In this document: piece after piece, positions 5,666 through 38,422 of the stretch
How positions within the stretch are numbered: position 1 is the first letter of the stretch
Layout of the letters: each line of letters begins with the position of its first letter
Program-made: the position numbers and the translations under genes
DNA from: Acidimicrobiales bacterium
Lineage (GTDB): Bacteria; Actinomycetota; Acidimicrobiia; Acidimicrobiales; MedAcidi-G1
Assembly (NCBI GenBank): GCA_014239855.1
Contig: JAAZXY010000015.1
Span: 1 to 45,714, forward strand
Direction: 5' to 3'
Length of the DNA: 45,714 nucleotides
The notes under the pieces: generated by a model
What the model saw: the letters and a program-made list of their open reading frames with translations, nothing else
Database searches by the model: none
Told to the model about the DNA's origin: nothing

Positions 5666-5686
5666 GAACAGGCACCTGAGCGGGTG

Positions 5687-10168: not shown

Positions 10169-10207
10169 AGATGCTCCGTCTGACGTCACTGGCAAAGGGC
10201 AGACGGA

Positions 10208-10213
10208 AGAGTA
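10208..10213 (-). promoter_or_regulatory. Candidate -10 box for the liv operon
   Basis: TACTCT on the minus strand, 39 nt before the GTG start of livH in the divergent intergenic region. It fits the actinobacterial TAnnnT pattern. No convincing -35 hexamer is seen, so this is a weak call. Confidence 0.3.
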
Positions 10214-10270
10214 TCCGCCCAACGGCCTGTCCGTGTGCCCTCCGTCACCGCTGGCGACGACGTCCATCGG

Positions 10271-10276
10271 TACGCT
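10271..10276 (+). promoter_or_regulatory. Putative leaderless -10 box (TACGCT) of the class IV aminotransferase
   Basis: TACGCT is followed by 7 nt and then ATG 10284. No Shine-Dalgarno sequence is visible, so transcription probably starts at the A of the start codon. Confidence 0.45.
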
Positions 10277-10283
10277 CGCCCCC

Positions 10284-11198
10284 ATGTCCCGCAGCACCCA
10301 TCAGGCCCTGGCCGACGAGCGCAACGCCTCCGTCGAGATCTACATCAACGGCGAGTTCTTTCCCCGCCACGAGGCCAAGGTGTCGGTGTTCGACAGTGGC
10401 TTCCTGGTGGGCGACGGCGTCTGGGAGGGGCTGCGGCTCCACCATGGCCGGTTCGCCTTCCTGGACCGCCACATGAACCGACTGTTCGCCGGACTGGCCG
10501 CCACCGGCATCGATGTGGGCATGACCCGGGACGGTGTGATCGAAGCGCTCCGGGCCACCGTGGACCGCAACGACATGCACGACGACGTCCACGTTCGCCT
10601 CATGGTCACCCGCGGCGACAAGAAGACCCCGTCACAGCACCCGTCCAACTGCGTGGGCGGACCGAACGTGGTCATCATCGCCGAGCACAAGGCGGCTGAT
10701 CCGGCGGTGCTGGCCTCGGGCATCTCGTTGTTCACGGCCACCGTGCGACGACCGCCACCCGACACGCTCGACCAGCGCCTCAACTGCCACTCCAAGATGC
10801 ACGAGGTGATCGCCCTCATCCAGGCCGTGGAGGCCGGTGCCGACGAGGCCCTCATGCTGGACCCGACGGGAGCGGTGGCCACCTGCAACGCCACCAACTT
10901 CTTCATCGTCCGGGAAGGCGGCGTATGGACGTCGACCGGGCACTACAACCTGAACGGCATCACCCGTCAGGTGGTGCTGGAGATCGCGCCGCAGGCCGGG
11001 CTGACCGCCCATGAGAAGCCGTTCTCGCTGACCGACGTCTACTCGGCCGACGAGGTGTTCGTGACCGGCACCTTCGCCGGACTCACCCCGGTGGTGTCCG
11101 TCGACGGGCGAACCATCGGCAACGGTGGCCCGGGGCCGTTGACGGCCCGCCTGCGCGACCTGTACCACGAGGCTGTCGAAGCCGACGTGACCCGCTGA
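10284..11198 (+). CDS. Class IV (fold type IV) PLP aminotransferase
   Basis: PLP-dependent enzyme of the branched-chain aminotransferase / D-amino acid aminotransferase / aminodeoxychorismate lyase superfamily, 304 aa. Seen: an N-terminal strand with INGEFF and VSVFDSGFLVGDGVWEGLR, the lysine region LNCHSKMHEVIAL (the lysine expected to bind PLP), and the phosphate-binding segments DEALMLDPTGAVATCNATNFF and NLNGITRQVV. The start at ATG 10284 is favoured by a TAnnnT box 7 nt upstream. Longer in-frame starts add a non-conserved stretch. The following sulfotransferase lies 32 nt downstream on the same strand. Substrate is undetermined; BCAT-like or D-amino-acid transaminase are both possible. 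Confidence 0.88.
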   Translation: MSRSTHQALADERNASVEIYINGEFFPRHEAKVSVFDSGFLVGDGVWEGLRLHHGRFAFLDRHMNRLFAGLAATGIDVGMTRDGVIEALRATVDRNDMHDDVHVRLMVTRGDKKTPSQHPSNCVGGPNVVIIAEHKAADPAVLASGISLFTATVRRPPPDTLDQRLNCHSKMHEVIALIQAVEAGADEALMLDPTGAVATCNATNFFIVREGGVWTSTGHYNLNGITRQVVLEIAPQAGLTAHEKPFSLTDVYSADEVFVTGTFAGLTPVVSVDGRTIGNGGPGPLTARLRDLYHEAVEADVTR

Positions 11199-11965: not shown

Positions 11966-12417
11966 CCCGACACCGTGCACCGGTCGCCGGTGTGCAGCCC
12001 GTCGATGCCCTCGGCCAGCACCACCACCGGTACGAGCCGGCCGTAGAGCTCGTCGGCCACCACGGCGCCCAGAGCGATGATCTCATCAGGCTCGGCCATC
12101 AGTACGGCCCGCGGGCCGGTTCCGGCCCGGACCGCTTCACACAGGACGCTGCTGCCGCCACTGGAACCCTTTCCTGACGGCATGACCAGCACCCGGTCGG
12201 CCACCGATTCCCCGACCTGGGGGTGACGCCGGTCGATGATCCGGCCGGTCGTCGGATCCAGGCCGCCCCAGAAGCTCAGGGGCTCATCGAGGCGCAGGAC
12301 CTCGCCCGACGCCTCGCCGGCCACCATGGTCCGGCCCTCCAACAGGTCGACGGGTGTTCCCGCCTCAGGCGGGGGTCCCTCAGATAGGGGTCCCTCAGAT
12401 AGGGGTCCTTCAGACAC
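11929..12417 (-). CDS. Aconitase-X swivel (small) subunit, DUF126 family
   Basis: Small subunit of an AcnX-type dehydratase, 162 aa. Seen: the DUF126 signature LSFWGGLDPTTGRIID, HPQVGES, VLVMPSGKGSSGGSSVL (phospho/substrate serine loop) and LMAEPDEIIALGAVVADELYG. The GTG start overlaps the stop of the large-subunit gene by 8 nt. The first 15 residues come from a 15-bp tandem repeat (SEGPL units), so the true conserved protein begins later, near TPVDLLEG. Known two-subunit AcnX enzymes include cis-3-hydroxy-L-proline dehydratase; archaeal forms act on phosphomevalonate. The substrate here is not certain. It converges on and overlaps the sulfotransferase gene by 37 nt. Confidence 0.88.
   Translation of the reverse strand: MSEGPLSEGPLSEGPPPEAGTPVDLLEGRTMVAGEASGEVLRLDEPLSFWGGLDPTTGRIIDRRHPQVGESVADRVLVMPSGKGSSGGSSVLCEAVRAGTGPRAVLMAEPDEIIALGAVVADELYGRLVPVVVLAEGIDGLHTGDRCTVSGQTVSAYSARRS
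12372..12416. repeat. 15-bp tandem repeat, 3 copies, at the AcnX subunit junction
   Basis: Unit GGGGTCCCTCAGATA at 12372-12386 and 12387-12401, with a third copy at 12402-12416 carrying two substitutions. Read on the minus strand each unit encodes Ser-Glu-Gly-Pro-Leu at the start of the small AcnX subunit. The large-subunit stop lies in the first translated copy. Confidence 0.9.
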
Positions 12418-13675
12418 GGGTCCACAGCCCCTCGTCGCGGACCACCCGGCCGGCGACCGCTGATTCGACGCAGTCCTCGATGCTGCCGAACACCACCTCG
12501 ACGCCGAGGTTGCCCGGCGCGTAGTAGGCCCACTTGGCCGAATCGGTCATCGAGGTGCCCGACGTGTCCTCGATGATGGACGTGAAGTAGGTGCAGGTGT
12601 CGACCACCATCTGGACGCCGGCATCGACCAGACGGTCGGCCCAGCCACGCAACTCGACCTCACGGAGCACATCACGGCCCGTCGAGGCGTAGACGTTGAC
12701 CCCGTCGTGGATGCGTCGGTCACCCAGCACCTCGACGAGTCGGCCGAACTGCCCGACCGAATAGTGCGGCGTGCCGAGGCTGACCGTGCGGAGGCGATCG
12801 TCATCCGTCGTGCTGAGGCGATCCCGGGCGGCCCGGAGATCCTCCGGCCCGACCTCGAACTCGGCCACCGGGGCCCGGCCGCCGAGCGCCGCGTCGAGCG
12901 TGGGCGCTTCGGGCGTACTGCCCGCTACGTGGAACAGGCCCACGCTGCCCGTCGACGCCGCGGCGGCACCGAGGGCCTTGAGTCGATCCTCGGAGACCCC
13001 GTCGGGCAGTCCCACGATGACCGGAACGGCCTTCCCGACCAGCGGTCCGATCAGGCCACCCAGCACCGGATAGAGGACGTCACGGTCCAGGAGTTCGTCG
13101 GACACCCCGTTCAGTCGAACCACCGTGGTGGCCAGCCGGTTGGCGTCAAGGTGCAGGCCAGCGGCCGGCGCCCGGCCGGTGATGGCACAGCACAGGTCGA
13201 TGAAGTCCCCCCAGCGGTGGGTTCGGGCTCCGAGCACCGAGTTGGCGAACACGATGGCGTTGGACTCGGCCCACGCCACGTGCTCGCCGAAGCCGGGGCG
13301 CTCCTCGAGCTGGTAGGGCGCACAGGTCCAGGTCGGCCGGCAACCCATCTCCTCGAACCGATCCATGAGGCGCCGCGACAGTCGGACCTCCTCGGCGTCA
13401 CCCCGGGAGAGTTCGGGATGGAGCAGGTCCAGGGACGAGACGTTCAGGGTGGTCGGCACCGACACCCGGGCCCCGTCGTCGGCCAGCCGGCCGGCGAAGT
13501 CGAGCGACGCCATGCCGGTGAACAGACAGGAGTCGATGTGGGCCCCGACGATGTCCAGCAGCCGTTCGGCCTCCATGGCTTCGGCGACCCGGGTCACCAC
13601 CCGCATGGCCAGGGCTACCGCCGGCCCCTCTTCGCCCGCCAGACGTGCGGCGTCGCGCTCGTCGAGGCGGAGCAT
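12410..13675 (-). CDS. Aconitase-X catalytic (large) subunit, DUF521 family
   Basis: Catalytic subunit of an AcnX-family Fe-S dehydratase, 421 aa. Seen: an N-terminal LAGEEGPAVALAMRVV, GAHIDSCLFTGMASLDFA, VSVPTTLNVSSLDLL, then the cysteine-bearing segments WTCAPYQ, DLCCAITGRAP and VVDTCTYF, which carry the candidate cluster ligands. It ends with WAYYAPGNLGVEVVFGS. The start ATG 13675 overlaps the preceding LysM gene stop (TGATG), and its own stop overlaps the small-subunit start. Characterised bacterial AcnX enzymes dehydrate cis-3-hydroxy-L-proline; that function is possible but no proline racemase or imino acid reductase is nearby. The family call is secure, the substrate is not. Confidence 0.88.
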   Translation of the reverse strand: MLRLDERDAARLAGEEGPAVALAMRVVTRVAEAMEAERLLDIVGAHIDSCLFTGMASLDFAGRLADDGARVSVPTTLNVSSLDLLHPELSRGDAEEVRLSRRLMDRFEEMGCRPTWTCAPYQLEERPGFGEHVAWAESNAIVFANSVLGARTHRWGDFIDLCCAITGRAPAAGLHLDANRLATTVVRLNGVSDELLDRDVLYPVLGGLIGPLVGKAVPVIVGLPDGVSEDRLKALGAAAASTGSVGLFHVAGSTPEAPTLDAALGGRAPVAEFEVGPEDLRAARDRLSTTDDDRLRTVSLGTPHYSVGQFGRLVEVLGDRRIHDGVNVYASTGRDVLREVELRGWADRLVDAGVQMVVDTCTYFTSIIEDTSGTSMTDSAKWAYYAPGNLGVEVVFGSIEDCVESAVAGRVVRDEGLWTRV

Positions 13676-22179: not shown

Positions 22180-23274
22180 TCAGCCCAGGATCTCGTCCAG
22201 CGCGCCCAACAGGAGGGTGACGTTGCGCTGACGAGCCGTGTGGCCCATGCAACCGATGCGCCAGACCCGGCCGGCCACCGGGCCGAGGCCGCCGCCGATC
22301 TCGATCCCGTACTCGGCCAGGAGTCGCCCACGGACGCCCGCCTCGTCGACGCCATCGGGCAGTCGGTCGTCCGGGACGATCACCGAGGTGAGTTCGGGGA
22401 GACGGTGGCCCTCCTGGGCGAACAGTTCGAAGCCCCGCTTGACGAGGCCCTCCTGCAGCCGATCCCCGCATGCCTGATGTCGGGCCTGCACGTTCTCGAG
22501 CCCCTCGTCGAGCACCACGCCCAGACCGGCGTGCAGCGCGTAGAGCATCGAGATGGGGGCGGTGTGGTGGTAGGCGCGGGCGCCGCCACCGGTCACGTAG
22601 TTGGCGATCATGGCGAAGTCGAGGTACCAGGACTGCGACTTCTCGACGAAGCCGTCGATGGCGGCCTGGGAGACGGTCACCGGCGACAGGCCGGGCGGGA
22701 CGCCGAGGCACTTCTGGGTGCCGCTGTAGGCCAGGTCGACGCCCCATTCGTCGATCTCCAGGGGGATGCCGCCGAGGGAGGTGACGCAGTCGACCAGCAG
22801 CAGGGCGTCGCCCTTGCCGGCCCCGAGGGGGGCGATGTCGTTGCGGACGCCGGTGGACGTCTCGGCGTGCACCACGGCGATGACCTTGGGTGACGGATGG
22901 GCGTCCAGCAGGGTCTGGGGATCGATGGCCGTTCCCCACGCGGCGTCGACCCGGACGACCTCGGCGCCACAGCGCGACGCCACGTCACACATGCGTTCGC
23001 CGAACACGCCGTTGACGCCGACGACGACCACGTCCCCGGGACCCAGCACGTTGACGAAGGTGGCCTCCATGCCGGCCGAACCGGTGGCCGAGACGGGGAA
23101 GGTCAGGGGGTTGGACGTCCGGAAGACCTCGCGGAGGCGTTCGTTCGTCTCGTCCAGAAGGGCAATGAAGTCGGGATCCAGGTGACCCAGGACCGGGCGA
23201 CCGAAGGCCTCGATGACCTCGGGGTACGGGTTCCCGGGACCGGGGCCCATGAGGATGCGATCTGCGTGCGACAT
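22180..23274 (-). CDS. Serine-glyoxylate / alanine-glyoxylate aminotransferase
   Basis: Class V PLP aminotransferase, 364 aa. It transfers an amino group from serine or alanine to glyoxylate, giving glycine. Seen: [21 protein letters not shown], the [10 protein letters not shown] phosphate region, [12 protein letters not shown], the PLP aspartate in [12 protein letters not shown], and lysine 188 in YSGTQKCLG. The start at ATG 23274 is chosen over ATG 23283 because a TAGGAT box sits exactly 7 nt before it and the family normally opens just there. In the serine cycle this step consumes glyoxylate and makes hydroxypyruvate from serine, which fits the mtk-mcl-ppc genes 4 kb away. Alanine-, serine- and aspartate-specific members look alike, so the donor is inferred. 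Confidence 0.87.
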
Positions 23275-23281
23275 GGCTTCC

Positions 23282-23287
23282 ATCCTA
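23282..23287 (-). promoter_or_regulatory. Putative leaderless -10 box (TAGGAT) of the glyoxylate aminotransferase
   Basis: TAGGAT on the minus strand, 7 nt before ATG 23274. It supports that start over the earlier ATG, which overlaps this box. Confidence 0.5.
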
Positions 23288-24788: not shown

Positions 24789-25418
24789 CTAGATGAGCGC
24801 CAACACGATGACCACGATCACCACGACGGCGATGATCGTCGAAACGAGGCGCTTGAGGACGGAGGCGCCAGCAGCACCCAGCAGGTCGACTGCCTCGGCC
24901 TCGGGAGCCTCAATGACCCGCACCTCTGGGGCGGCCTCCTCGGCTGCAGCCTCGGCGGGGGCGTCCTCGGTGGGGGCCGATGAGACCAGGTCACTCAGGT
25001 TGTCGGCGAACTGGGCCATCAGCTTGCGGGACACGTCGGCCATGACCCCGCGACCAAACTGCGCCACCTTGCCCGCCACCTTCAGATCGGTGGTGACGGT
25101 GACCTTCGTTCCGCCGTCGATGGCCGCCAACTGGGCGATGATCTCCGCCGCAGCGCTGCCCGCCCCCCGGGTGTCACGGCCCTCGGCCCGCAGCACGGCC
25201 CGGTGACCCTCATCGTCGCGCTCCACGAAGGAGGCCGCTCCCTTGTACTGGACGGTGATCGGACCGACCTTGACCTTCACCACACCACGGAACTCGTCGC
25301 CCTCCACCTCCTGGAGCTGGGCGCCGGGCAGACAGGGAGCGATGCGTTCCACGTCGGTCAGAAGGGCCCAGACCCGGTCGATCGGTGCCGATACCTCGAA
25401 CTCGTTGTTCAGTTCCAT
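24789..25418 (-). CDS. coxG: CoxG-like SRPBCC protein with C-terminal membrane anchor
   Basis: CO dehydrogenase subunit G family, 209 aa. Seen: an SRPBCC (START-like) domain over residues 1-150, with FEVSAPIDRVWALLTDVERIA, CLPGAQLQEV and KVKVGPITVQYKG. A Glu/Ala-rich linker follows, then a C-terminal helix (STIIAVVVIVVIVLALI) that anchors it to the membrane. In carboxydotrophs CoxG is thought to tether or mature the Mo-Cu CO dehydrogenase. It overlaps the nucleotidyltransferase gene by 10 nt and shares its strand with the XdhC-type genes, which supports a Mo-hydroxylase maturation role. No coxMSL structural genes are in the window. Confidence 0.88.
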   Translation of the reverse strand: MELNNEFEVSAPIDRVWALLTDVERIAPCLPGAQLQEVEGDEFRGVVKVKVGPITVQYKGAASFVERDDEGHRAVLRAEGRDTRGAGSAAAEIIAQLAAIDGGTKVTVTTDLKVAGKVAQFGRGVMADVSRKLMAQFADNLSDLVSSAPTEDAPAEAAAEEAAPEVRVIEAPEAEAVDLLGAAGASVLKRLVSTIIAVVVIVVIVLALI

Positions 25419-25969
25419 CGCCGAAGGTCCTCCACGGTGTCGACGTCAGCGGGTTCGCCCGGACACGATACTTCCAGCACGAGATCCGACCTCTGGATGA
25501 GGAGGCCCCGTGCCCCCTCGTCGCCCACCTCGGGGAGATCACCCCACAGCGTCCGACCGATTCGGACCGGCGGCCGGCGGCGACCATCGAAGGTGGCCAC
25601 CGCCAGTTCGGCATCTGCCGCGGCGACCGCACGCCACGCTTCGGCCGGCACGCCCGGGCTGTCGGCCAGTCCGACCACCACCGCGCCGTGGCCCACGGCC
25701 TCCGCGTGGGCCACGGCCAGACGGAGCGATCCGGCCTGACCCTCGGCCCACCGGTCGTTGTGGAGGACCGTCGCCCCCCCGGGGATCACCGCGGCGAGGT
25801 CGACGGCCCCGGTGACCACGATGAGCTCGTCCAGCCCGGCATCCGAAGCGGCGGCCAACGCATGGGCGGCCAAGGGTCGTCCGGCGAGATCCGCCAACAG
25901 CTTGTGGCCGTCACCCTTCCAGCGTTCGCCACCTCCGGCGGCCAGCACCACCGCGGCCCGGGATCCCAT
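25409..25969 (-). CDS. MobA/MocA-like molybdenum cofactor nucleotidyltransferase
   Basis: NTP transferase, 186 aa. Seen: N-terminal nucleotide loop VVLAAGGGERWKGDGHKLLAD (LAAGxGxR, then K), LDELIVVTGA, DRWAEGQAGSLRLAV, and the metal-binding region VVGLADSPGVP, where the usual MP-D pair is replaced by LADSP. It probably adds CMP or GMP to molybdopterin cofactor for a xanthine-oxidase-family enzyme, which uses the cytosine form made by MocA. Its place between coxG and xdhC supports this. It starts 9 nt after the XdhC gene and overlaps coxG by 10 nt. Confidence 0.85.
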   Translation of the reverse strand: MGSRAAVVLAAGGGERWKGDGHKLLADLAGRPLAAHALAAASDAGLDELIVVTGAVDLAAVIPGGATVLHNDRWAEGQAGSLRLAVAHAEAVGHGAVVVGLADSPGVPAEAWRAVAAADAELAVATFDGRRRPPVRIGRTLWGDLPEVGDEGARGLLIQRSDLVLEVSCPGEPADVDTVEDLRRWN

Positions 25970-25978
25970 TCTCCGACC

Positions 25979-26836
25979 TCAGTCGTGGATCGGGCCGTCG
26001 GTGGCCGACAGCGCTCTGGTCGATCGGCCGGTCCGCAGGGCGATGATCTCCGACACGATGGAGATGGCCGTCTCCTCAGGGGTACGGGCCCCGATGTCCA
26101 GTCCGATGGGCGACCGCAGCCAGGCCAGTTGTTCGTCGGTCACGCCGGCGTCGCGGAGTCGGCCCAGACGGTCGTCATGGGTCCGCCGGGAACCCATGAC
26201 CCCGATGTAGCCGACCGAGGTGGCCAACGCCCCGACAATGGCCGGCACGTCGAACTTCACGTCGTGGGTGAGCACGCACACCGCATCGCGGCGACGCAGC
26301 TCCGGGCCCACCTCGGCCAGGAGCCGGTCGGGCCAGTCCACGACGACCTCGTCGGCCAGCGGGAATCGCTGCGTGGTGGCGAACACCTCCCGGGCGTCAC
26401 ACACCGTGACCCGGTAGCCGAGCACCTTGGCCACCCGCACGAGCGCCGCGGTGAAGTCCACCGCGCCGAACACCAGCATCCGTGGGGGAGCAGCGAACGA
26501 CTCCACGAAGACCGAGACCGTCTCCTCGCGGGCTTCGCCGTGGGCGCCGTAGTGGCGGACTCCGCTGCGTCCCGCCGAGAGTTCACCGAGTGCGTCACGG
26601 GCCACCACCCGATCCAGGCCCTCGTCACCCAGAGTTCCCAGGACCTCGACGCCCTCGCCGGTCGTGCGTCGCACCAGCAGGTGCCGGCCCGTGCCCGTCA
26701 CGTCGGACCCCGGGCCGTCGGATCCCGGTCCATCGATCACGGTGGCCAGGGCGACGGGCACCTCGTCGGCCAGCAGCTCAGCCAGCCGGTCAAAGAGCTG
26801 CCCGCCCCCGTCTCCCGGATCGTCCCCGTCGTCCAT
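25979..26836 (-). CDS. coxF: XdhC/CoxF family molybdenum-hydroxylase maturation protein (Rossmann part)
   Basis: Accessory protein that binds and protects or sulfurates molybdenum cofactor before insertion, 285 aa. Seen: a divergent first half with a low-complexity insert (GPGSDGPGSD), a Rossmann dinucleotide strand MLVFGAVDFTAALVRVAKVLG, VTVCDAREVFATTQRFP, CVLTHDVKFDVPAI, GYIGVMGSRRTHDDR, and the C-terminal block IGLDIGARTPEETAISIVSEI. These are the hallmarks of the XdhC C-terminal domain. The separate small gene just upstream carries the XdhC_CoxI N-terminal module, so the two may work as one split protein. Gap to that gene is 3 nt. Confidence 0.88.
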   Translation of the reverse strand: MDDGDDPGDGGGQLFDRLAELLADEVPVALATVIDGPGSDGPGSDVTGTGRHLLVRRTTGEGVEVLGTLGDEGLDRVVARDALGELSAGRSGVRHYGAHGEAREETVSVFVESFAAPPRMLVFGAVDFTAALVRVAKVLGYRVTVCDAREVFATTQRFPLADEVVVDWPDRLLAEVGPELRRRDAVCVLTHDVKFDVPAIVGALATSVGYIGVMGSRRTHDDRLGRLRDAGVTDEQLAWLRSPIGLDIGARTPEETAISIVSEIIALRTGRSTRALSATDGPIHD

Positions 26837-27248: not shown

Positions 27249-28127
27249 TCAGAGCAGCTTGGAAATCACGGTCCCGAAGTCCGACGGCCGCTCGACCACC
27301 GTCACCCCGTGATCCTTCATGATCTCGATCTTCTCGGCGGCCGACTCGCCCGGTCCGGTGACGATGGCTCCGGCATGGCCCATGGTCCGGCCCTTGGGGG
27401 CCGACAGCCCGGCGATGTAGGCCACCACCTTCTTGTGCATGTGGTCCCTGGCGAACGCCGCCGCCTGAGCCTCCTGGGGGCCACCGATCTCGCCGATCAC
27501 GCAGACCACGCTGGTCTCGGGATCCTGCTCGAAGGCCTTGAGGTGGTCGGTGAACGAGCTGCCGTTGATCGGGTCGCCGCCGATTCCCACGCTGGTGCTG
27601 ACCCCGATGCCCAGTGATTTGAGCTGCGAGGCGGCCTCGTAGCCGAGGGTGCCGGAACGTCCGATGATGCCCACCGGACCCTGGGCGTAGATGTGGCCCG
27701 GCATGATGCCGAGCAGGGCCTTGCCGGGGCTGATCACGCCGGCGCAGTTCGGGCCCATGAGGGTCATGCGTTTCTCGACCCGCTTGGTCCGCATGTAACG
27801 CTTGACCTTCATCATGTCCTGGGCCGGGATCCCGTCGGTGATGCACACGCAGTGGGCGATCCCGGCGTCGGCGGCCTCCATGATGGCGTCAGCGGCGAAG
27901 GGCGGCGGGACGAACACGATGCTGGCCTCGGCGCCCGTCTCGTTGACGGCGTCCTTCACGGTGTCGAACACCGGCAGGCCCAGGTGGTCGGAACCGCTCT
28001 TGCCGGGTGCGATGCCCCCGACCACGTTGGTTCCGTACTCGATCATCTCCTCGGCATGGAACGTTCCCATGCGTCCGGTGAACCCCTGGACGATGACCGG
28101 GGTCTTCTCGTCGACGACGATGCTCAT
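27249..28127 (-). CDS. mtkB: Malate-CoA ligase (malate thiokinase) alpha subunit
   Basis: Alpha subunit of an ATP-dependent acyl-CoA ligase of the SucD family, 292 aa. With MtkA it would make malyl-CoA from malate. Seen: the CoA-binding start VDEKTPVIVQGFTGRMGTFH, PPPFAADAIMEAADAGI, ITDGIPAQDMMKVKRY, the GPNCAGVISPGK block, and the phosphohistidine H251 in TMGHAGAI. Segments such as MSIVVDEKTP, IPAQDMM and GHIYAQGPVG resemble, from memory, MtkB of serine-cycle methylotrophs more than TCA-cycle SucD. The start ATG 28127 is 2 nt after mtkA. Downstream mcl-type context supports malate over succinate. Succinyl-CoA synthetase is the alternative. Confidence 0.85.
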   Translation of the reverse strand: MSIVVDEKTPVIVQGFTGRMGTFHAEEMIEYGTNVVGGIAPGKSGSDHLGLPVFDTVKDAVNETGAEASIVFVPPPFAADAIMEAADAGIAHCVCITDGIPAQDMMKVKRYMRTKRVEKRMTLMGPNCAGVISPGKALLGIMPGHIYAQGPVGIIGRSGTLGYEAASQLKSLGIGVSTSVGIGGDPINGSSFTDHLKAFEQDPETSVVCVIGEIGGPQEAQAAAFARDHMHKKVVAYIAGLSAPKGRTMGHAGAIVTGPGESAAEKIEIMKDHGVTVVERPSDFGTVISKLL

Positions 28128-28129
28128 GA

Positions 28130-29302
28130 CTAGTTCGCCTCCCAGGAAACTGCGGCCACGGACTTCTCGCCGGCCTCGGCCAGCGTCTCTGCGGTGATCA
28201 GGTCGACGTCGCTCTGCTCGAGGATGCGACGTCCCTCCTCGACGTTGGTGCCCGACAGCCGCACGACCACCGGGACCTTCACGTCCAACTCGTTCATGGC
28301 CTTCACGACCCCCTCGGCCACCCAGTCGCACCGGTTGATGCCGGCGAAGATGTTCACCAGGATCGCCTCGACACGGTCGTCGGACAGGACGAGCTTGAAC
28401 GCCTTGGCCACCCGGTCCGGCGATGCCCCACCACCGATGTCCAGGAAGTTGGCCGGCTCGCCACCGGCGTGCTTGATCATGTCCATGGTGGCCATGGCCA
28501 GACCGGCCCCGTTGATGATGCAGCCGATGTTGCCGTCGAGTCCCACGTAGCTGAGGCCCCGATCGGCGGCGTTCATCTCACGAGGGTCCTCCTGGGACTT
28601 GTCCCGGAGTTCGGACACGTTCTGGTGACGGAACAGGGCGTTGTCGTCGAAGCTCATCTTGGCGTCCAACGCCAGCAGACGACCCTCTTCGGTGACCACC
28701 AGCGGGTTGATCTCCAGCAGGGTGGCGTCAAGCGCCCGGAAGGCCTTGTAGGCGCCCAGCAGGAGTGTCTCGGCCTGGGCGATCAGCCCGGCGTCCAGGC
28801 CGCAGGCGAAGGCGGCCTCCCGGGCCTGGAAGCCCTGCAGCCCGACCGCCGGCTCGATGTGGATCCGGTGGATGGCCCCGGGGTCGGTCTCGGCCAGTTC
28901 CTCGATCTCCATGCCGCCGGAGCCCGACATGACGAGCACGATCCGTTCCGTCTGGCGGTCCAGCACCATGGACAGGTAGAGCTCGCGCTCGAAGGGAACC
29001 ACGGGCTCGATGTAGAGCCGGTAGACGCCCCTGCCGCCGGGACCGGTCTGGTTGGTGACCAGCCGGCGTCCCAGAAGGTCGTCAGCGGCCTCCCACACCT
29101 CGTTCTCATCAGCGCACATGCGGATGCCGCCGGCCTTGCCGCGGGCGCCGGAGTGGATCTGCGCCTTCACGACCCACTGCTCGCCGCCGATCTCCTTGGC
29201 GCGGTAGGCGGCCTGCTCCGGGCTGTAGGCGAGGCCGCCGGTGGCGATCGGCACGCCGAAGTCCGAGAGAAGGGCCTTGGCCTGGTACTCGTGAATGTCC
29301 AT
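28130..29302 (-). CDS. mtkA: Malate-CoA ligase (malate thiokinase) beta subunit
   Basis: Beta, ATP-grasp subunit of the SucC family, 390 aa. Seen: [36 protein letters not shown] (the ATP-grasp lysine region), [20 protein letters not shown] (Mg-binding), [20 protein letters not shown], then [20 protein letters not shown]. The last segment differs from TCA SucC, where the usual form is NIFGGIVRCDLIADGI, and agrees with my recollection of methylotroph MtkA. The start at ATG 29302 has GGAGA 10 nt upstream. The 64-nt gap to mcl holds a palindrome and (GTTC)5. Cytoplasmic; it forms a heteromer with the subunit encoded 2 nt downstream. Confidence 0.85.
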
Positions 29303-29327
29303 GGACTGGTTCTCCGTCCCGTTTCTG

Positions 29328-29365
29328 GTTCGTTCGTTCGTTCGTTCGGAGCGACCGCGGTCGCT
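29328..29365. repeat. (GTTC)5 microsatellite followed by a perfect 16-bp palindrome, mcl-mtkA gap
   Basis: Five tandem GTTC units (29328-29347), then AGCGACCGCGGTCGCT (29350-29365), which equals its own reverse complement. Both lie in the 64 nt between the mcl stop and the mtkA start. They could attenuate or set expression of mtkAB relative to mcl, or be a protein-binding site. No T-tract follows. Confidence 0.85.
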
Positions 29366-29366
29366 G

Positions 29367-30314
29367 CTATCGGCCGTCGATGGCGGCGGCCTGGGCCACC
29401 ACGTTCTCGGCCATGCGGGCCGACGCGGCATCGATCATGCGGCCCTCGAGCTGGGCTGCTCCCCGACCCTCGGCGGCCGCCTCCTCGAGGGCGGCAAGGA
29501 TCCGGTGGGCCCGGTCGACCTCGTCGGCGGGCGGCGAGAAGACCTGGTTGGCCAGTTCGATCTGGGAGGGGTGGATGGCCCACTTGCCCTCGTAGCCCAG
29601 GGCGGCGGCCCGGCGGGCGCCATCGAGATAGCCGTCGGGGTCGTTGAAGTCGCCGAACGGTCCGTCGATGGGACGGATGCCGTAGGCCCGGCAGGCCACC
29701 AGCATCCGGGACAGGGCCTGGTGCCACTGGTCTCCCGGGTAGTCCGGGTTGAGGCCACCGATGTTGGTGGTGCGGGCCCGACAACTGGCCGCGTAGTCGG
29801 CCACGCCGAAGTGCATCGCCTCGAGGCGGCGGCTGGACGTGGCGATGGACTCCACGTTGGCCATGCCCAGGGTGGTCTCGATGAGGGCCTCGATTCCGAT
29901 CCCACCATCGGAGACATCGAGACCGGTGGCCTCCTCGATCTGGGTGACCATGGCATCGACCATGTAGACGTCGGCGGCCACCCCCACCTTGGGAATGAGG
30001 ATGGTGTCCAGGTGCTCGCCGGCCTGTTCGACCACGTCGACGACGTCCCGGTACATGTAGTGGGTGTCGATGCCGTTGATCCGGACGGAGATGGTCTTGC
30101 CCAGTCCCCTCCAGTCGATGTCCCGCAGCCCGTCGATGACGTTGCGGCGAGCCTGTTCCTTGTCGCCGGGAGCGACCGCGTCCTCCAGATCGAGGAACAC
30201 GTAGTCCACGTCACTGGCCGCGGCCTTCTCGAACAGGGCCGGGTTGGTCCCGGGCACGGCGAGTTCGCTGCGCTGGAGTCGCTGGCGGGCGGGGGCATAT
30301 CGGGTGTGGCTCAT
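29367..30314 (-). CDS. mcl: L-malyl-CoA lyase (malyl-CoA/beta-methylmalyl-CoA lyase, CitE-like family)
   Basis: Mg-dependent HpcH/HpaI-type lyase that splits malyl-CoA into acetyl-CoA and glyoxylate, 315 aa, a usual length. Seen: [41 protein letters not shown] (Mg-binding glutamate/aspartate), [49 protein letters not shown], and the closing block [16 protein letters not shown] plus [20 protein letters not shown]. The THYMYRD and PFGDF motifs are characteristic of malyl-CoA lyases of the serine cycle and related pathways rather than citrate lyase beta. The start ATG 30314 has GGAG 5 nt upstream. First gene of mcl-mtkA-mtkB and divergent from ppc. Confidence 0.93.
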
Positions 30315-30327
30315 GGTGCTCCGGTGC

Positions 30328-30344
30328 CGGGAGGCAGCCTCCCG
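30328..30344. promoter_or_regulatory. 17-bp palindrome in the mcl 5' leader
   Basis: CGGGAGGC-A-GCCTCCCG is a perfect inverted repeat between the candidate mcl promoter and its ribosome-binding site. In RNA it could form a hairpin 13 nt before the start codon; in DNA it could be an operator. Confidence 0.5.
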
Positions 30345-30375
30345 AGCGGGGATGCTGCAGGGGTGATCTGGAACG

Positions 30376-30405
30376 CATTCTGCACGAATGTTTCCTCAGA
30401 TTCAA
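30376..30405 (-). promoter_or_regulatory. Candidate promoter of mcl-mtkA-mtkB with overlapping dyad operator
   Basis: On the minus strand TTGAAT (30400-30405) and CAGAAT (30377-30382) are spaced by exactly 17 nt, a good -35/-10 pair. The dyad CATTC-N5-GAATG (30376-30390) overlaps the -10 box. In serine-cycle methylotrophs a LysR-type regulator (QscR) controls these genes, so a repressor or activator site here is plausible. Confidence 0.5.
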
Positions 30406-30433
30406 GTAGGTAGAACCACAGGGGTGATTCGAC

Positions 30434-30439
30434 TAGGTT
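30434..30439 (+). promoter_or_regulatory. Putative leaderless -10 box (TAGGTT) of ppc
   Basis: TAGGTT is followed by 6 nt and ATG 30446. A 10-mer, CAGGGGTGAT, occurs at 30358-30367 and again at 30419-30428, just before this box, and may be a shared regulatory site. Confidence 0.45.
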
Positions 30440-30445
30440 TCCCCC

Positions 30446-33205
30446 ATGTCGCAGTTGACGTCGGTCACACCTGAACGGGGACCCGAGCCGACCGACGCCG
30501 CACTCCGGGCCGATATCCGGCGCCTCGGAACCCAGTTGGGCAACACCTTGGTCCGCCAGCACGGCGAAGACCTGCTGGACGCCGTGGAGCGGGTCCGCAC
30601 CCTGACCCGCCACCTCCGCGAACAGGACGCCGCCACCCCCTCCACCGAGGCATGGGTGGCCACCGAACTCCACGAACTGTTCGACGACACCGACGTGGCC
30701 CACGCCATCCTCCTGGTGCGGGCCTTCACCGTCTACTTCCACCTGGCCAACGTGGCCGAACAGGTCCACCGCATCGAGGACCTCAACTCGGGATCGCCCA
30801 ACGCCGCCAACCAGTTCGACGAGACCATCCACTCGTTGATGGCGACGGGCATCACGGCCGGGGAGATCGCCGACCTCGTGGGACGGGCCGAGGTCCGACC
30901 GGTCTTCACCGCCCATCCAACCGAGGCGTCACGGCGGGCCATTCTCGACAAGTTGGCCACGGTCAGCCAACTTCTCGAACAGCGTTCCGAGCAGCGACGG
31001 ACCGAGGCCGACCAACGACGGATCGACCGGCGGATCGAAGAGATCATCGACGCCGTCTGGCAGACCGACGAACTGCGACACGTGCGACCCGAGCCGATGG
31101 ACGAGGCGCGGTCGGTCCTCTACTACATCGGCCTGACCGTCCGCGAGGCCATCCCCGACCTGTTCGACGAGATGCAGGCCGCCCTGGCCTCCATCGGCCA
31201 GTCGCTGCCCGCCGATCGCGTTCCCATCCGGTTCGGATCGTGGGTGGGAGGCGACCGGGACGGCAACCCCAACGTGCTCCCGGCCACCACCGACGAGGTG
31301 CTGGGCCTGCAACGCCGCCGAGCGCTCGAGGTCCTCATCGCCGAGATCAGCGACCTGGGCCATGAGTTGAGCATCAGCACCCGGGTCCACGACGTGTCCG
31401 ATGAACTGGCGGCGGCCACCGAGGCCGACCGGTCGATGTTGGCCGACCTGGGCAACCGGGTCGACCACTCGGAGCCCTACCGGATCCGATGCGAGGCCAT
31501 CCGGCGTCGACTCCGGGCCACCGCAGGGCACGGGACCGAGGCCCGTGGGTACGGGTCACCGGCCGAACTGCACGCCGACCTCGACGTCATCGACCGGTCC
31601 CTGCGGGCCAACGGCGGTGGTCTACTGGCCGACGGTGCCGTGGCCCGGGTGCGACGGATCCTCCAGGTGATCGGCTTCCACTTCGCCACCCTCGACGTCC
31701 GCGAACACTCCGATCGCCACCACGAGGCGTTGACCACGCTGTTCGCCGCCAACGACGTCGACTACGGCGCCCTCACCCCCGAGGAACGGTGCACCCTGCT
31801 GGCCGCGGAGATGGAGAGTCGGAGGCCGCTCGCCCCACCGGCCACCCCGGATGACGCCGGCGCACTGGCGCTGTTCCGCACCCTGCGCCAGATCATGGAC
31901 CGTGACGGCGACGACGTCATCGAGAGCTACGTCATCTCCATGACCCAGGGCGTCCAGGATGTGCTGGCCCCGGTGGTCCTGGCCCGTGAGGTGGGGCTCA
32001 TCGACCCGGCGCACGACACGGCCCGGGTCGGGTTCGTCCCCCTCTTCGAGACCATTGACGACCTGCGCTCCATCGGTCCGACCCTGCGGGCCCTGTTCTC
32101 CGTCACCCCCTACCGACGCATCGTCGAACTCCGCGGCGGATCCCAGGAGGTGATGGTCGGCTACTCGGATTCCAACAAGGACGGCGGCATCACCACGTCG
32201 CAGTGGGAGATCCACAAGGCCCTCCGGGTCATCCGGGAGGTCTCCGACGAGACGGGGATCCCCATCCGGGTGTTCCACGGCCGGGGCGGCACCATTGGCC
32301 GGGGTGGCGGGCCGACCCACGCCTCCATCCTCGGGCAGCCCAACGGCGTGCTGGACGGCGAGGTGAAGTTCACCGAACAGGGCGAGGTCATTGCCGACAA
32401 GTACGGACACCCCGAGATCGCCCGTCGGAACCTCGACCTGGCGTTCACCGCGGTGCTCGAGGCGTCGCTGGCGCACAAGGCCCCCCGCCACGACGAGACC
32501 ACCATCACCCGGTGGTACTCGATCATGGACGACATGGCCGATGACGCCTACGCGGCCTACCGGGGCTTCGTGGAGACCCCCGGACTGGTGGAGTACTTCA
32601 CCACCTCGACCCCGGTCGAGGAACTGGGCGAGATGAACATCGGTTCACGCCCCGCCCGGCGCCGGGGGGCCACCACCGGGATCGCCGACCTGCGGGCCAT
32701 CCCCTGGGTGTTCGGCTGGACGCAGTCCCGGCAGATCATCCCGGGATGGTTCGGCGCGGGCAGCGGTCTGGCCGCCTGCCGGGCGGCAGGCCATGGTGCC
32801 GAGCTGCGTCGCATGTACGAGGACTGGCACTTCTTCCGGACCTACGTGTCCAACGTGGAGATGACGCTGACCAAGACCGATCTGGCCATTGCCCGCCACT
32901 ACGTCGAGCGACTGGTCGACCCGTCACTGCACCACCTGTTCGAGGCGGTGGTCGACGAGTACCACCGGACGGCCGACGAGATCCGGGCCATCACCGGTGC
33001 GGCCCTGCTGGCCGAGAAGCCGATGCTGCGACGCACCCTGGCCGTCCGCGACGCCTACCTCGACCCGCTCAACGTCCTCCAGGTGGAGATGCTGCACCGC
33101 TCCCGATCCGGTTCGACCGAGGGCCAGCCGGCCGACGAGGAACTCCAGCGGGGACTGTTGTTGACCATCAACGGCATCGCGGCCGGCATGCGAAACACCG
33201 GCTGA
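30446..33205 (+). CDS. ppc: Phosphoenolpyruvate carboxylase
   Basis: Fixes bicarbonate on PEP to give oxaloacetate, 919 aa, full length for the bacterial-type enzyme. Seen: the catalytic histidine 157 in VFTAHPTEASRR, FGSWVGGDRDGNPNV, LDVREHSDRH, the second signature VMVGYSDSNKDGG, the glycine-rich loop FHGRGGTIGRGGGPTH, and the invariant C-terminus INGIAAGMRNTG. It is divergent from mcl with 131 nt between and is flanked downstream by the convergent coxE gene. In the serine cycle this enzyme provides oxaloacetate for malate and malyl-CoA formation; an anaplerotic role is the alternative. Confidence 0.97.
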   Translation: MSQLTSVTPERGPEPTDAALRADIRRLGTQLGNTLVRQHGEDLLDAVERVRTLTRHLREQDAATPSTEAWVATELHELFDDTDVAHAILLVRAFTVYFHLANVAEQVHRIEDLNSGSPNAANQFDETIHSLMATGITAGEIADLVGRAEVRPVFTAHPTEASRRAILDKLATVSQLLEQRSEQRRTEADQRRIDRRIEEIIDAVWQTDELRHVRPEPMDEARSVLYYIGLTVREAIPDLFDEMQAALASIGQSLPADRVPIRFGSWVGGDRDGNPNVLPATTDEVLGLQRRRALEVLIAEISDLGHELSISTRVHDVSDELAAATEADRSMLADLGNRVDHSEPYRIRCEAIRRRLRATAGHGTEARGYGSPAELHADLDVIDRSLRANGGGLLADGAVARVRRILQVIGFHFATLDVREHSDRHHEALTTLFAANDVDYGALTPEERCTLLAAEMESRRPLAPPATPDDAGALALFRTLRQIMDRDGDDVIESYVISMTQGVQDVLAPVVLAREVGLIDPAHDTARVGFVPLFETIDDLRSIGPTLRALFSVTPYRRIVELRGGSQEVMVGYSDSNKDGGITTSQWEIHKALRVIREVSDETGIPIRVFHGRGGTIGRGGGPTHASILGQPNGVLDGEVKFTEQGEVIADKYGHPEIARRNLDLAFTAVLEASLAHKAPRHDETTITRWYSIMDDMADDAYAAYRGFVETPGLVEYFTTSTPVEELGEMNIGSRPARRRGATTGIADLRAIPWVFGWTQSRQIIPGWFGAGSGLAACRAAGHGAELRRMYEDWHFFRTYVSNVEMTLTKTDLAIARHYVERLVDPSLHHLFEAVVDEYHRTADEIRAITGAALLAEKPMLRRTLAVRDAYLDPLNVLQVEMLHRSRSGSTEGQPADEELQRGLLLTINGIAAGMRNTG

Positions 33206-33235: not shown

Positions 33236-34387
33236 TCAGTCCTCGGCCAACACCTCGGCGAGGGTGCGTAGCGAGTCCAGCGTGTGGCCCTCGAGGAATC
33301 GATCCACGTAGGGCAGGGCAGCGGCCATGCCCCGGGCCAGAGGGGCGTAGCCCGGAGACGCCTTCAGCGGGTTGACCCACACGATCCGGTGGGCCACCCG
33401 ACCGAGGCGTGCCATCTGCTCGGCCATCACCACCGGCTCGCCCCGGTCCCAACCATCGGACAGCACGACGACCGTCGCTCCGCGGGCCATTCCCCTGACC
33501 CCCCACTGGTCGTTGAAGACGCGCAGGCCGTCTCCCAGGCGCGTCCCGCCGGACCAGTCGGTGACCGCCTCGGCCGCCCGGCTCAGGGCGGCGTCGGGAT
33601 CCCGGGTGGACAGCTCCCGGGTGAGGCGGGTCAGGCGCGTACCGAGGGCGAACGCCTCGACGTCGCGGCGCCCGACCATCGCGGCGTGCAGGAAGCGGAT
33701 GAGGGCCCGGGCGTAGGGCTCCATCGATCCGGAGACGTCCAGCAGCAGGACAAGTCGACGGGGCCGCTCCCCGGGCTCGGCGAAGCAACGCCGGAGCGGT
33801 TCGCCACCGGTGCGAAGGGCGGCCCGCACGGTGCGCCGCAGGTCCTGTCGGCCCCGGCGGGCAGTCGGTCGAAGGCGGCGGCACCGCCGGGTGGCCCCGA
33901 ACAGGCGCATCCGGCCCATCAGGTCGTGGAGTTCGGCCAGTTCCTCGTCGGTGCACCCGGCGAAGTCCCTGGCCGCCAACACCTCGGCCCGCGACCAGCG
34001 GACCTCGAGGTGGTCCTCTCCCCGCTCCGATCCGTCGTCGTGGTCGTCGTCCGGCGGCGGATCCCCGGCCCGGTCGAGCGACAGGGTGACCGGATGCCGG
34101 GCCACGGGGACCCGTCCCCGAAGGGGGGCACCGGTCCAGTGGTGGTCGAACACCTCGTCATAGGTGCCGATGTCCTCCGGGCGACACACCAGGGTGGCCC
34201 GGCCCGACCAGTACACGCCGGACCGGTCGGCCGCCCCGACTTCGGCCACCGCCCGGCCGAAGGCCAGGGTGCTTCCCAACGGGACCACCAACCCGGAGGT
34301 CCGCAGGCGATCCACGAACCGGACCAGGTGACGGTCCAGGGTCAGGACCCCGCACCGGTCGGGGTCGAGGTGGGCGATGTCGATCAC
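33236..34387 (-). CDS. coxE: CoxE-like von Willebrand factor A domain protein
   Basis: VWA-domain protein, 383 aa, of the CoxE family. It partners the MoxR-type ATPase CoxD in maturing the copper-sulfur-molybdenum site of CO dehydrogenase in Afipia (Oligotropha) carboxidovorans. Seen: LTLDRHLVRFVDRLRTSGL near the N-terminus, a charged linker (DDDHDDGSERGEDH), and the VWA domain from about residue 215 with the MIDAS motif LLLDVSGSMEPYA, ALGTRLTRLTREL, SGGTRLGDGL and VVLSDGWDRGEP. The start is GTG 34387, 35 nt after coxD. It is convergent with ppc. Such MoxR-VWA pairs also serve other complexes, so a CO dehydrogenase role is inferred from the coxD/F/G/I companions. Confidence 0.88.
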   Translation of the reverse strand: MIDIAHLDPDRCGVLTLDRHLVRFVDRLRTSGLVVPLGSTLAFGRAVAEVGAADRSGVYWSGRATLVCRPEDIGTYDEVFDHHWTGAPLRGRVPVARHPVTLSLDRAGDPPPDDDHDDGSERGEDHLEVRWSRAEVLAARDFAGCTDEELAELHDLMGRMRLFGATRRCRRLRPTARRGRQDLRRTVRAALRTGGEPLRRCFAEPGERPRRLVLLLDVSGSMEPYARALIRFLHAAMVGRRDVEAFALGTRLTRLTRELSTRDPDAALSRAAEAVTDWSGGTRLGDGLRVFNDQWGVRGMARGATVVVLSDGWDRGEPVVMAEQMARLGRVAHRIVWVNPLKASPGYAPLARGMAAALPYVDRFLEGHTLDSLRTLAEVLAED

Positions 34388-34422
34388 GATCGGACCCCGG
34401 GAACGGCGTCGCCGGCCGCCGG

Positions 34423-35346
34423 TCAGGCCCCTCGGAGGAGGCCGACCACCTCGCCGAAGCCCCGAGACCGGAGGCGATCCTGATCCTCCCGGTACTTGAG
34501 CAGCGTTCCGATGGTGATGTCCATGGCCTCGGCATCCAGATCGTCGACGCCGATCAGCACGAGGGCCTCGGCCCAGTCCAGCGTCTCGGCCACCCCGGGC
34601 GGCTTGTACATGCCCATGTCCCGGAGCTCGGCGGCCACCGTGGCCACGTCACGAGCCAAGGAGGCCGACACGTGCGGAGCCCGCACCCGGAGGATCTCGA
34701 CCTCGCGGTCCACGTCAGGATGCTGCACCCAGTGGTACAGGCAACGCCGCTTCAGCGCATCGTGGACGTCGCGGGTGCGGTTCGAGGTGACGACCACCAC
34801 GGGTGGTACCTCGGCCCGGTAGGTGCCCAGCTCGGGCACGGTCACCGCGTAGTCCGAGAGGATCTCCAGCAGGAACGCCTCGAACTCGTCGTCGGCACGG
34901 TCCACCTCGTCGATGAGCAGCACCGGTGGCACCCCGCCAGTGGCCGACAACGAGCGCAGGAGCGGTCGGCGAACCAGGAACCGCTCGTGGTACAGCTCGT
35001 CCTCCAGGGTCGCCGCATCGGACCCGGCGGCCGTCCCCGCGGCCTCGGCGGCCCGCAGGTGTAGGAGTTGGCGGGAGTAGTCCCACTCGTAGACGGCCTG
35101 GGAGACGTCGATTCCCTCGTAGCACTGGAGTCGGATGAGCTCGCCCCCCGACCATGCGGCAAGGGCGCGGGCGGCCTCGGTCTTACCCACCCCGGCCTCG
35201 CCCTCCAGCAGGAGCGGACGACGGAGGCGCAGCGCCAGGTAGACGGCCGTTCCGAGGCCCTCGTCGACCAGATACCCCTGCGCGCCGAGCCCGGTGACGA
35301 CCTCGTCAACCGAGGCGACGTCGTGGACGGTTCCGGCAGGGGGCAT
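34423..35346 (-). CDS. coxD: CoxD-like MoxR-family AAA+ ATPase
   Basis: AAA+ chaperone of the CoxD type, 307 aa. Seen: Walker A LLLEGEAGVGKTEAARAL, LIRLQCYEGIDVSQAVYEW (a CoxD-type segment), Walker B VLLIDEVDRADDEFEAFLLE, sensor 1 VVVTSNRTRDVHDAL, the arginine pair in KRRCLYHWV, and an AAA lid with YKPPGVAETLDWAEAL. CoxD is proposed to act as an ATP-dependent unfoldase on apo-CO dehydrogenase, together with the VWA protein CoxE encoded downstream. The start ATG 35346 has a TAACCT box 6 nt upstream, so it likely begins a leaderless coxD-coxE transcript. It lies 25 nt before ftsB ends on the same strand. Confidence 0.9.
   Translation of the reverse strand: MPPAGTVHDVASVDEVVTGLGAQGYLVDEGLGTAVYLALRLRRPLLLEGEAGVGKTEAARALAAWSGGELIRLQCYEGIDVSQAVYEWDYSRQLLHLRAAEAAGTAAGSDAATLEDELYHERFLVRRPLLRSLSATGGVPPVLLIDEVDRADDEFEAFLLEILSDYAVTVPELGTYRAEVPPVVVVTSNRTRDVHDALKRRCLYHWVQHPDVDREVEILRVRAPHVSASLARDVATVAAELRDMGMYKPPGVAETLDWAEALVLIGVDDLDAEAMDITIGTLLKYREDQDRLRSRGFGEVVGLLRGA

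Positions 35347-35701: not shown

Positions 35702-38422
<2,721 letters not shown>

Follow-up and report, generated by a model that had tools for sequence, protein, structure and literature searches.

A candidate serine-cycle gene block in uncultured Acidimicrobiia

The serine cycle is a route from one-carbon (C1) units to biomass that is best known from Proteobacteria. Could an actinobacterium also use it? The question is raised by contig JAAZXY010000015.1 of assembly GCA_014239855.1, whose whole stretch of 45,714 nucleotides is here called the window and supplies all unlabelled coordinates. A reading made from the sequence alone (the sequence-only reading) had proposed that the window carries a serine-cycle module: mtkB and mtkA for the two subunits of malate-CoA ligase, mcl for malyl-CoA lyase, and a divergent ppc for phosphoenolpyruvate (PEP) carboxylase. 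All four genes lie where they had been placed (Table 1); mtkB, mtkA and mcl form a single operon, from which ppc diverges. We consider it rather probable that this block is the acetyl-CoA- and glyoxylate-releasing half of a serine cycle that is fed by the methyl groups of methylated amines. The observations behind this reading are gene presence, orthology, synteny and co-location, from which the predicted enzyme identities of the block are well supported.

Table 1. Features of the block and its surroundings (window positions)
Feature	Position	Strand	Basis
mtkB, malate-CoA ligase (malate thiokinase) alpha subunit, SucD family	27249..28133	-	NCBIfam, identities
mtkA, malate-CoA ligase beta subunit	28130..29302	-	NF010647, AGIN loop, tree
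mcl, malyl-CoA lyase	29367..30314	-	5ugr best solved relative, 413 bits; Pfam HpcH_HpaI PF03328
ppc, PEP carboxylase	30446..33205	+	NF000584, 956 bits, cut-off 815
Divergent mcl/ppc intergenic region, conserved block ~30380-30430	30315..30445	.	Alignment of 11 genus members
Class V aminotransferase, probably alanine/serine-glyoxylate aminotransferase (glyoxylate to glycine)	22180..23283	-	Best solved relative 1vjo
coxG-like 24789-25418, MocA-like 25409-25969, XdhC-like 25979-26836	24789..26836	-	Library matches, synteny
coxE-like 33236-34387; AAA ATPase, MoxR/CoxD-like by position, 34423-35346	33236..35346	-	Library match, synteny

The ligase was proposed to be MtkA rather than the succinate-CoA ligase beta subunit SucC, and model scores, a sequence motif and a tree all support an enzyme of the MtkA type. 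MtkA scores 675 bits on the NCBIfam model for the malate-CoA ligase beta subunit, NF010647 (cut-off 604). A separate sucCD pair of the tricarboxylic acid cycle type lies on contig C67 of the same genome, so that the ligase of the window is not the sole copy; its SucC reaches 488 bits on the SucC model but, with 371.5, misses the cut-off of the malate model, and thus provides an internal control for the MtkA call. The 11-residue motif that had been singled out in the beta subunit is real. It contains a loop, starting at MtkA residue 320, whose A-G-I-N core is present in all 88 MtkA-like rows that are ungapped at this place (of 89 in the alignment) and reads GGI(V/T/M)R in three SucC rows (E. 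coli, Azospirillum and the host's own copy). By analogy with succinyl-CoA synthetase structures this loop may take part in substrate binding, although no supporting paper was found. A quick tree of 93 rows, only three of them SucC, nests MtkA of the window among MtkA rows; the SucC rows are long-branched (the program gave a warning), and the Azospirillum SucC is encoded beside oxalate genes. MtkA also matched 104 plasmid records, 34 at 60-80% identity and 70 below 60%. Among the 40 plasmid rows listed, those at 64-71% are named malate-CoA ligase and those at 54-55% sucC, where annotated. Finally, a SucC-type match of 40-43% identity is found in all 17 genomes of the host's genus, and mtkA, near full-length and at 87-100%, in 13. 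MtkB, whose probable start is an ATG at about 28127 that overlaps the end of mtkA (as read from the sequence), is 67-70% identical to mtkA-adjacent homologues in Methylobacterium bullatum, Aminobacter and Paracoccus and only 50-53% identical to SucD of the host's second copy, E. coli and Azospirillum; its NCBIfam matches include no malate-type alpha model.

For Mcl, the best solved relative, 5ugr, is listed as malyl-CoA lyase/beta-methylmalyl-CoA lyase and is the Methylobacterium enzyme; malyl-CoA lyase 4l9y follows with 315 bits. The putative glyoxylate aminotransferase of the sequence-only reading is present and ends slightly beyond the 23274 first given; it matches alanine-glyoxylate aminotransferase 1vjo with 338 bits and reaches no NCBIfam equivalog cut-off.

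Put together, these enzymes would run as follows. PEP carboxylase would convert PEP to oxaloacetate, which malate dehydrogenase would reduce to malate; MtkAB would activate malate to malyl-CoA, and Mcl would cleave this into acetyl-CoA and glyoxylate. The nearby aminotransferase would turn glyoxylate into glycine, to which serine hydroxymethyltransferase (SHMT) would add methylene-tetrahydrofolate (THF), giving serine, and serine would return to PEP by way of hydroxypyruvate and glycerate, the last step through enolase. The C1 units would most likely be methyl groups of methylated amines, transferred to THF by MTTB-family and corrinoid methyltransferases and by GcvT-type demethylases, with formate as an additional entry through formate-THF ligase (FtfL/FTHFS). 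The catalytic activities and the direction of flux in this scheme are what we infer from the genes, as are the hydroxypyruvate-reducing enzyme, SHMT and the C1 substrates.

Several of the remaining steps have candidate genes outside the window. FtfL is encoded in 15 of the 17 genus genomes, in two copies in the host, and the C67 stretch (listed at L116) carries a FolD that is 40% identical over its full length to that of Paracoccus. A glycerate kinase of the GlxK family is also found in 15 of the 17; the host's copy scores 238 bits on TIGR00045 (cut-off 168) and does not reach the cut-off of either the 2-kinase or the 3-kinase equivalog, and this kinase may stand in for the MOFRL type. Isocitrate lyase is encoded in 14 of the genus genomes, in one as a partial match (host copy on NF011645: 748, against 562), and in the host it adjoins malate synthase A. 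As candidates for hydroxypyruvate reductase the host genome encodes five members of the D-2-hydroxyacid dehydrogenase family, three of which were scored against curated models: one is SerA (547, against 454) and the other two pass no cut-off. A dedicated HprA was not found among these candidates. The own-genome stretches that were scanned contain no GlyA match, and no genome-wide SHMT search was made.

As for the source of C1 units, MTTB-family genes occur in 17 of 17 genus genomes, with three to seven matches each, some of them fragments. On contig C102 of the host, ftfL lies with genes for an MTTB protein, a RACo activator, a pterin methyltransferase (NF005719, 352 bits, cut-off 259), a small PF13769 protein, a DUF1638 protein and a corrinoid protein. 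The closest solved relatives of this MTTB protein are 4yyc (679 bits), followed by 2qne and the glycine betaine methyltransferase 9yce (399 each), and it scores 108 bits against the trimethylamine methyltransferase 7xcl. Contig C66 carries the second ftfL, another MTTB gene and a gene that weakly resembles methylene-THF reductase (35 bits, cut-off 294), and contig C54 a 3-hydroxyacyl/carnitine-dehydrogenase-like gene and a GcvT gene; the homologue of the former in G014 falls short of the carnitine 3-dehydrogenase model (525 bits, cut-off 592). Methanol oxidation by XoxF was considered as a source and is unsupported in the genus.

The host belongs to an Acidimicrobiales/Microtrichales genus and its assembly is a draft, 83% complete. 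The actinobacterial host assumed from sequence agrees with the labels of the nearest named relatives, whose Mcl is 91-97% identical: four metagenome-assembled genomes (MAGs) labelled Acidimicrobiales or Acidimicrobiaceae, one of them with Microtrichales in its isolate name. Judging from MAG names, the group is apparently marine. Within the genus, mcl is near full-length in 13 of 17 genomes and reduced to a 77-residue piece in G007; G001, G002 and G014 have distant mcl matches alone (31-32%). Across the order MtkA is rare: it was found in 9 of 298 genomes and 4 of 171 genera, in the host's family f1 and in family f35, at a threshold of E <1e-120, which more divergent copies would escape.

In family f1 the block occupies one recurring locus, with the order aminotransferase-ppx-coxG-mocA-xdhC-(mtkB-mtkA-mcl)-ppc-coxE-coxD-enolase, and it is found there in different states. 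G112 has the full block. Three genomes (G261, G280 and G197) and a named MAG (L054) have mcl and ppc with no mtkAB match at the locus, and the three genomes have no MtkA elsewhere at E <1e-120. In five genomes (G001, G014, G172, G070 and G144) ppc stands alone, and in the stretch taken from G002 no ppc, mcl or mtk match lies beside coxE. Remnants were found in three cases: the C-terminus of MtkB is matched beside ppc by a 48-residue piece in G172 (62.5%, E 1e-13) and by a 33-residue piece in G001 (73%, E 6e-10), and in G007 the final 18 residues of MtkB find a match (E 0.002) that overlaps the mcl piece. Losses therefore account for at least three of the absences; for G014, G002 and two genomes of genus g2, loss and never having gained the block both fit. 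The GC content of f1 loci is 65-72% in 9 of the 12 measured and 56-61% in L166, L163 and L161, which are without mcl and mtkAB.

On both sides the block is flanked by accessory genes of the CO-dehydrogenase type (coxG-, MocA-, XdhC-, coxE- and coxD-like). The coxG-, MocA- and XdhC-like genes are members of the conserved locus, outside the serine cycle; in G008 (L029) the block is kept and no coxE, coxD or coxG match surrounds it. Between xdhC and ppc, L165 (14185-14806) and L161 (6371-6872) have a short separate frame that by eye resembles the N-terminal domain of XdhC/CoxI. The order mfd-eno-ppx is ordinary in Actinobacteria. An enolase gene does lie at 35702-36979, as had been reported, but its use as evidence for a serine cycle fared poorly: eno remains close by in relatives that lack mcl and mtkAB and was rejected as a member of the cluster, and since it stays whatever the fate of the block, it is weak evidence. 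Farther off, the window encodes an aconitase X (AcnX, PF04412, 429 bits; 12410-13675) and, at 2877-10297, hydantoinase B-like and DAO oxidoreductase genes near an ABC transporter of the branched-chain amino acid type, for which an N-methylated substrate would be a guess.

The conserved stretch between mcl and ppc spans about 50 bp in the aligned genus members. As a mark of a regulon it was set aside, as a pattern scan of own-genome stretches gave no second match. In G014, which is without the operon, a similar stretch is visible by eye upstream of ppc, though it was not among the hits of the pattern scan.

The second family presents the genes in another setting. In f35 locus L172 the trio mcl-mtkA-mtkB lies between an aminotransferase gene and a convergent trimethylamine N-oxide (TMAO) demethylase gene, whose product exceeds its equivalog cut-off (1190.8 bits, cut-off 1100). 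The homologue of the window's aminotransferase (73-75% identical) divergently adjoins the trio in all four f35 loci examined (five f35 genomes have MtkA). Upstream, L172 has a glutamine-synthetase-III-like gene (318 bits, cut-off 470) and homologues of the glutamine amidotransferase, GXGXG and flavin mononucleotide (FMN) glutamate-synthase genes that neighbour mtkA in Aminobacter (34, 34 and 52% identical). These last three may encode an N-methylglutamate synthase (mgsABC), though they are not annotated as such. The same three matches occur in L174, part of the third in L175, and none of them in the G276 stretches (L173 and L186). One f35 genome is listed with six contigs and has the block on a contig of 1.7 Mb, so that the block is no binning accident there.

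The four-gene block with divergent ppc also occurs in five loci of MAGs with proteobacterial labels (L044, L053, L055, L056 and L064; labelled Gammaproteobacteria, Proteobacteria, Acidiferrobacter or Candidatus Thioglobus). Gene order is the same as in the window, with ppc 64-65% and mcl about 80% identical. The sides differ: these blocks have no cox accessory match there, and in L055 an MTTB gene (625 bits) and a DAO-GcvT gene adjoin the block. Where measured, the flanks have 51-58% GC and the block 54-58%, which makes misbinned f1 contigs less likely. A careful ppc tree places the proteobacterial MAG rows beside genus g2, inside the family (83/96), but a single clade of 16 Acidimicrobiia rows is not rejected by an approximately unbiased (AU) test (p 0.247), and quick mtkA and mcl trees place the MAG rows differently. 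Transfer between Acidimicrobiia and these MAGs may have run in either direction. Six contigs labelled Pelagibacteraceae (L085, L090, L099, L103, L104 and L108) carry mcl, then mtkA and mtkB, with mtkA 58-62% identical to that of the window. Another six, labelled Gammaproteobacteria, Oceanospirillaceae, Pseudomonadales or SAR324 (L066, L067, L070, L073, L074 and L100), carry mcl with no mtkA or mtkB match in the fetched flank.

The block may also be compared with clusters on Aminobacter plasmid pAM01 and Paracoccus aminovorans plasmid II, which are annotated as serine-cycle-type, and in Methylobacterium bullatum, whose record has no annotation. Besides MtkB, these share homologous MtkA (64-71%) and Mcl (62-72%; 62% for Methylobacterium bullatum), and FtfL, too, is encoded in the host genome. 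The differences lie elsewhere. In the window, ppc is divergent and its product shares just 33-34% identity with the Methylobacterium and Paracoccus enzymes; serine-glyoxylate aminotransferase 6pk1 falls far behind 1vjo as a relative of the aminotransferase (154 bits vs 338); glycerate kinase is of the GlxK type and encoded outside the cluster; and, unlike the Aminobacter and Paracoccus regions, the cluster has no D-glycerate dehydrogenase.

Another parallel is the alphaproteobacterium Ruegeria pomeroyi, in which growth on glycine betaine is reported to involve demethylation by MtgBCD, with cobalamin-dependent methyl transfer to THF, and to raise serine-cycle proteins and SdaA (PMC12478193). 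The same study assigns 5% of ocean mtgC reads to Actinomycetota (PMC12478193). In contrast to R. pomeroyi, the host's MTTB and corrinoid proteins are family matches below equivalog cut-offs. In the open-access literature, with most subscription papers and all preprints outside the scope, no report was found that links the serine cycle to Acidimicrobiia, and none ascribes it to them in the accessible parts of PMC6003095, PMC8552738, PMC6517601, PMC4172156, PMC5430712, PMC5910564 and PMC6119699. A caveat to this negative is that, in the portion available of PMC6517601, a figure has some MAGs encoding the serine cycle and one MAG is named Acidimicrobidae_1.

Several observations weigh against a complete, C1-fed cycle. 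None of the three scored dehydrogenases exceeds the hydroxypyruvate reductase cut-off, and MOFRL-type glycerate kinase is found in 0 of 17 genus genomes. The GlxK-family kinase is absent from G005 and G009, the latter 94% complete and with mtkA; FtfL was not found in G004 and G016, both with mtkA; and the mtkA match of G003 contains two in-frame stops. On the side of C1 supply, no genus genome (0 of 17) has a pyrroloquinoline quinone (PQQ) methanol dehydrogenase of the XoxF type over the TIGR03075 cut-off, and the corrinoid protein of C102, with MtgC as its best model, stays at 199 bits below a cut-off of 370. G001, G002 and G014 are without mtkA and yet have MTTB and FtfL, which indicates that C1 handling is independent of the module; the module would then add assimilation to a pre-existing demethylation capacity. 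Lastly, the four loci with mcl and ppc and without mtkAB are not predicted by a complete cycle. The core of the sequence-only reading is nonetheless supported: genes for MtkA, Mcl, PEP carboxylase, FtfL, FolD, a glycerate kinase and isocitrate lyase are present, and what was looked for and not found is a MOFRL glycerate kinase and, among the three dehydrogenases scored, a hydroxypyruvate reductase over cut-off. The gene content points to what is likely a serine cycle whose reductase step lacks an assigned gene.

This gap leaves room for a modified cycle, a variant of the same reading with overlapping odds, in which serine would pass to pyruvate by an SdaA-type enzyme and on to PEP by pyruvate phosphate dikinase or PEP synthase, bypassing hydroxypyruvate and glycerate. 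The rise of SdaA with serine-cycle proteins in the R. pomeroyi study (PMC12478193) and the want of a clear hydroxypyruvate reductase in the host speak for this route, but the GlxK-family kinase in 15 of the 17 genus genomes speaks against it, and we regard it as possible, if improbable.

Use of the enzymes outside any cycle is unlikely. PEP carboxylase, MtkAB, Mcl and the aminotransferase would then turn PEP or C4 acids into acetyl-CoA and glyoxylate or glycine, or work in reverse for glyoxylate uptake, with no net C1 assimilation. Such use would accommodate the loci that have mcl and ppc without mtkAB, as well as the failure to identify a hydroxypyruvate reductase or a methylotroph-type glycerate kinase. 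However, malate synthase A and isocitrate lyase stand side by side in the genome, so glyoxylate uptake needs no Mcl, and relatives of the trio adjoin genes for TMAO demethylase, N-methylglutamate-synthase-like proteins and MTTB, which points to C1 use.

It is very doubtful that the ligase is a second ligase for succinate or another dicarboxylate, with the operon serving another CoA-ester lyase pathway (citramalate or methylmalyl-CoA). MtkA does exceed the SucC cut-off (NF001913, 537 bits, cut-off 370) and MtkB that of SucD (NF004230, 420 bits, cut-off 336), and Mcl reaches no NCBIfam equivalog cut-off. Nevertheless, MtkA scores highest on the malate-ligase model, with loop and tree in agreement, Mcl is nearest to a malyl-CoA lyase, and the RipC and CitE models stay far below their cut-offs. 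An assembly artefact, in which a contig of proteobacterial origin would have been binned with an actinobacterium, is hardly credible and already contradicted: the host is an incomplete draft, and MAGs labelled Gammaproteobacteria and Gemmatimonadales hold the nearest homologues that do not carry an Acidimicrobiia label, but the same synteny recurs in separately named Acidimicrobiia-labelled assemblies (L030, L031, L036 and L050) and in family f1, GC is 67.6% in the block and 68.4 and 69.3% in its flanks (L168), and mtkB remnants lie at the same place in relatives.

The serine-cycle reading would add a new lineage to a known pathway, in a variant of mixed origin. Its widest form, which we hold to be an even prospect, is that some Acidimicrobiia lineages assimilate methyl carbon of quaternary amines or TMAO by a horizontally spread serine cycle, corrinoid-fed in the family of the window and linked to TMAO and N-methylglutamate in the second, and that the four-gene block has passed as a whole between them and Gammaproteobacteria, which are probably marine. 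If this is true, uncultured Acidimicrobiia would join the lineages that build biomass from methylated-amine carbon, and serine-cycle markers in ocean metagenomes would no longer be proteobacterial by default. With the module present, reduced or lost at one locus, close relatives in this group offer a natural set for comparison with and without it.

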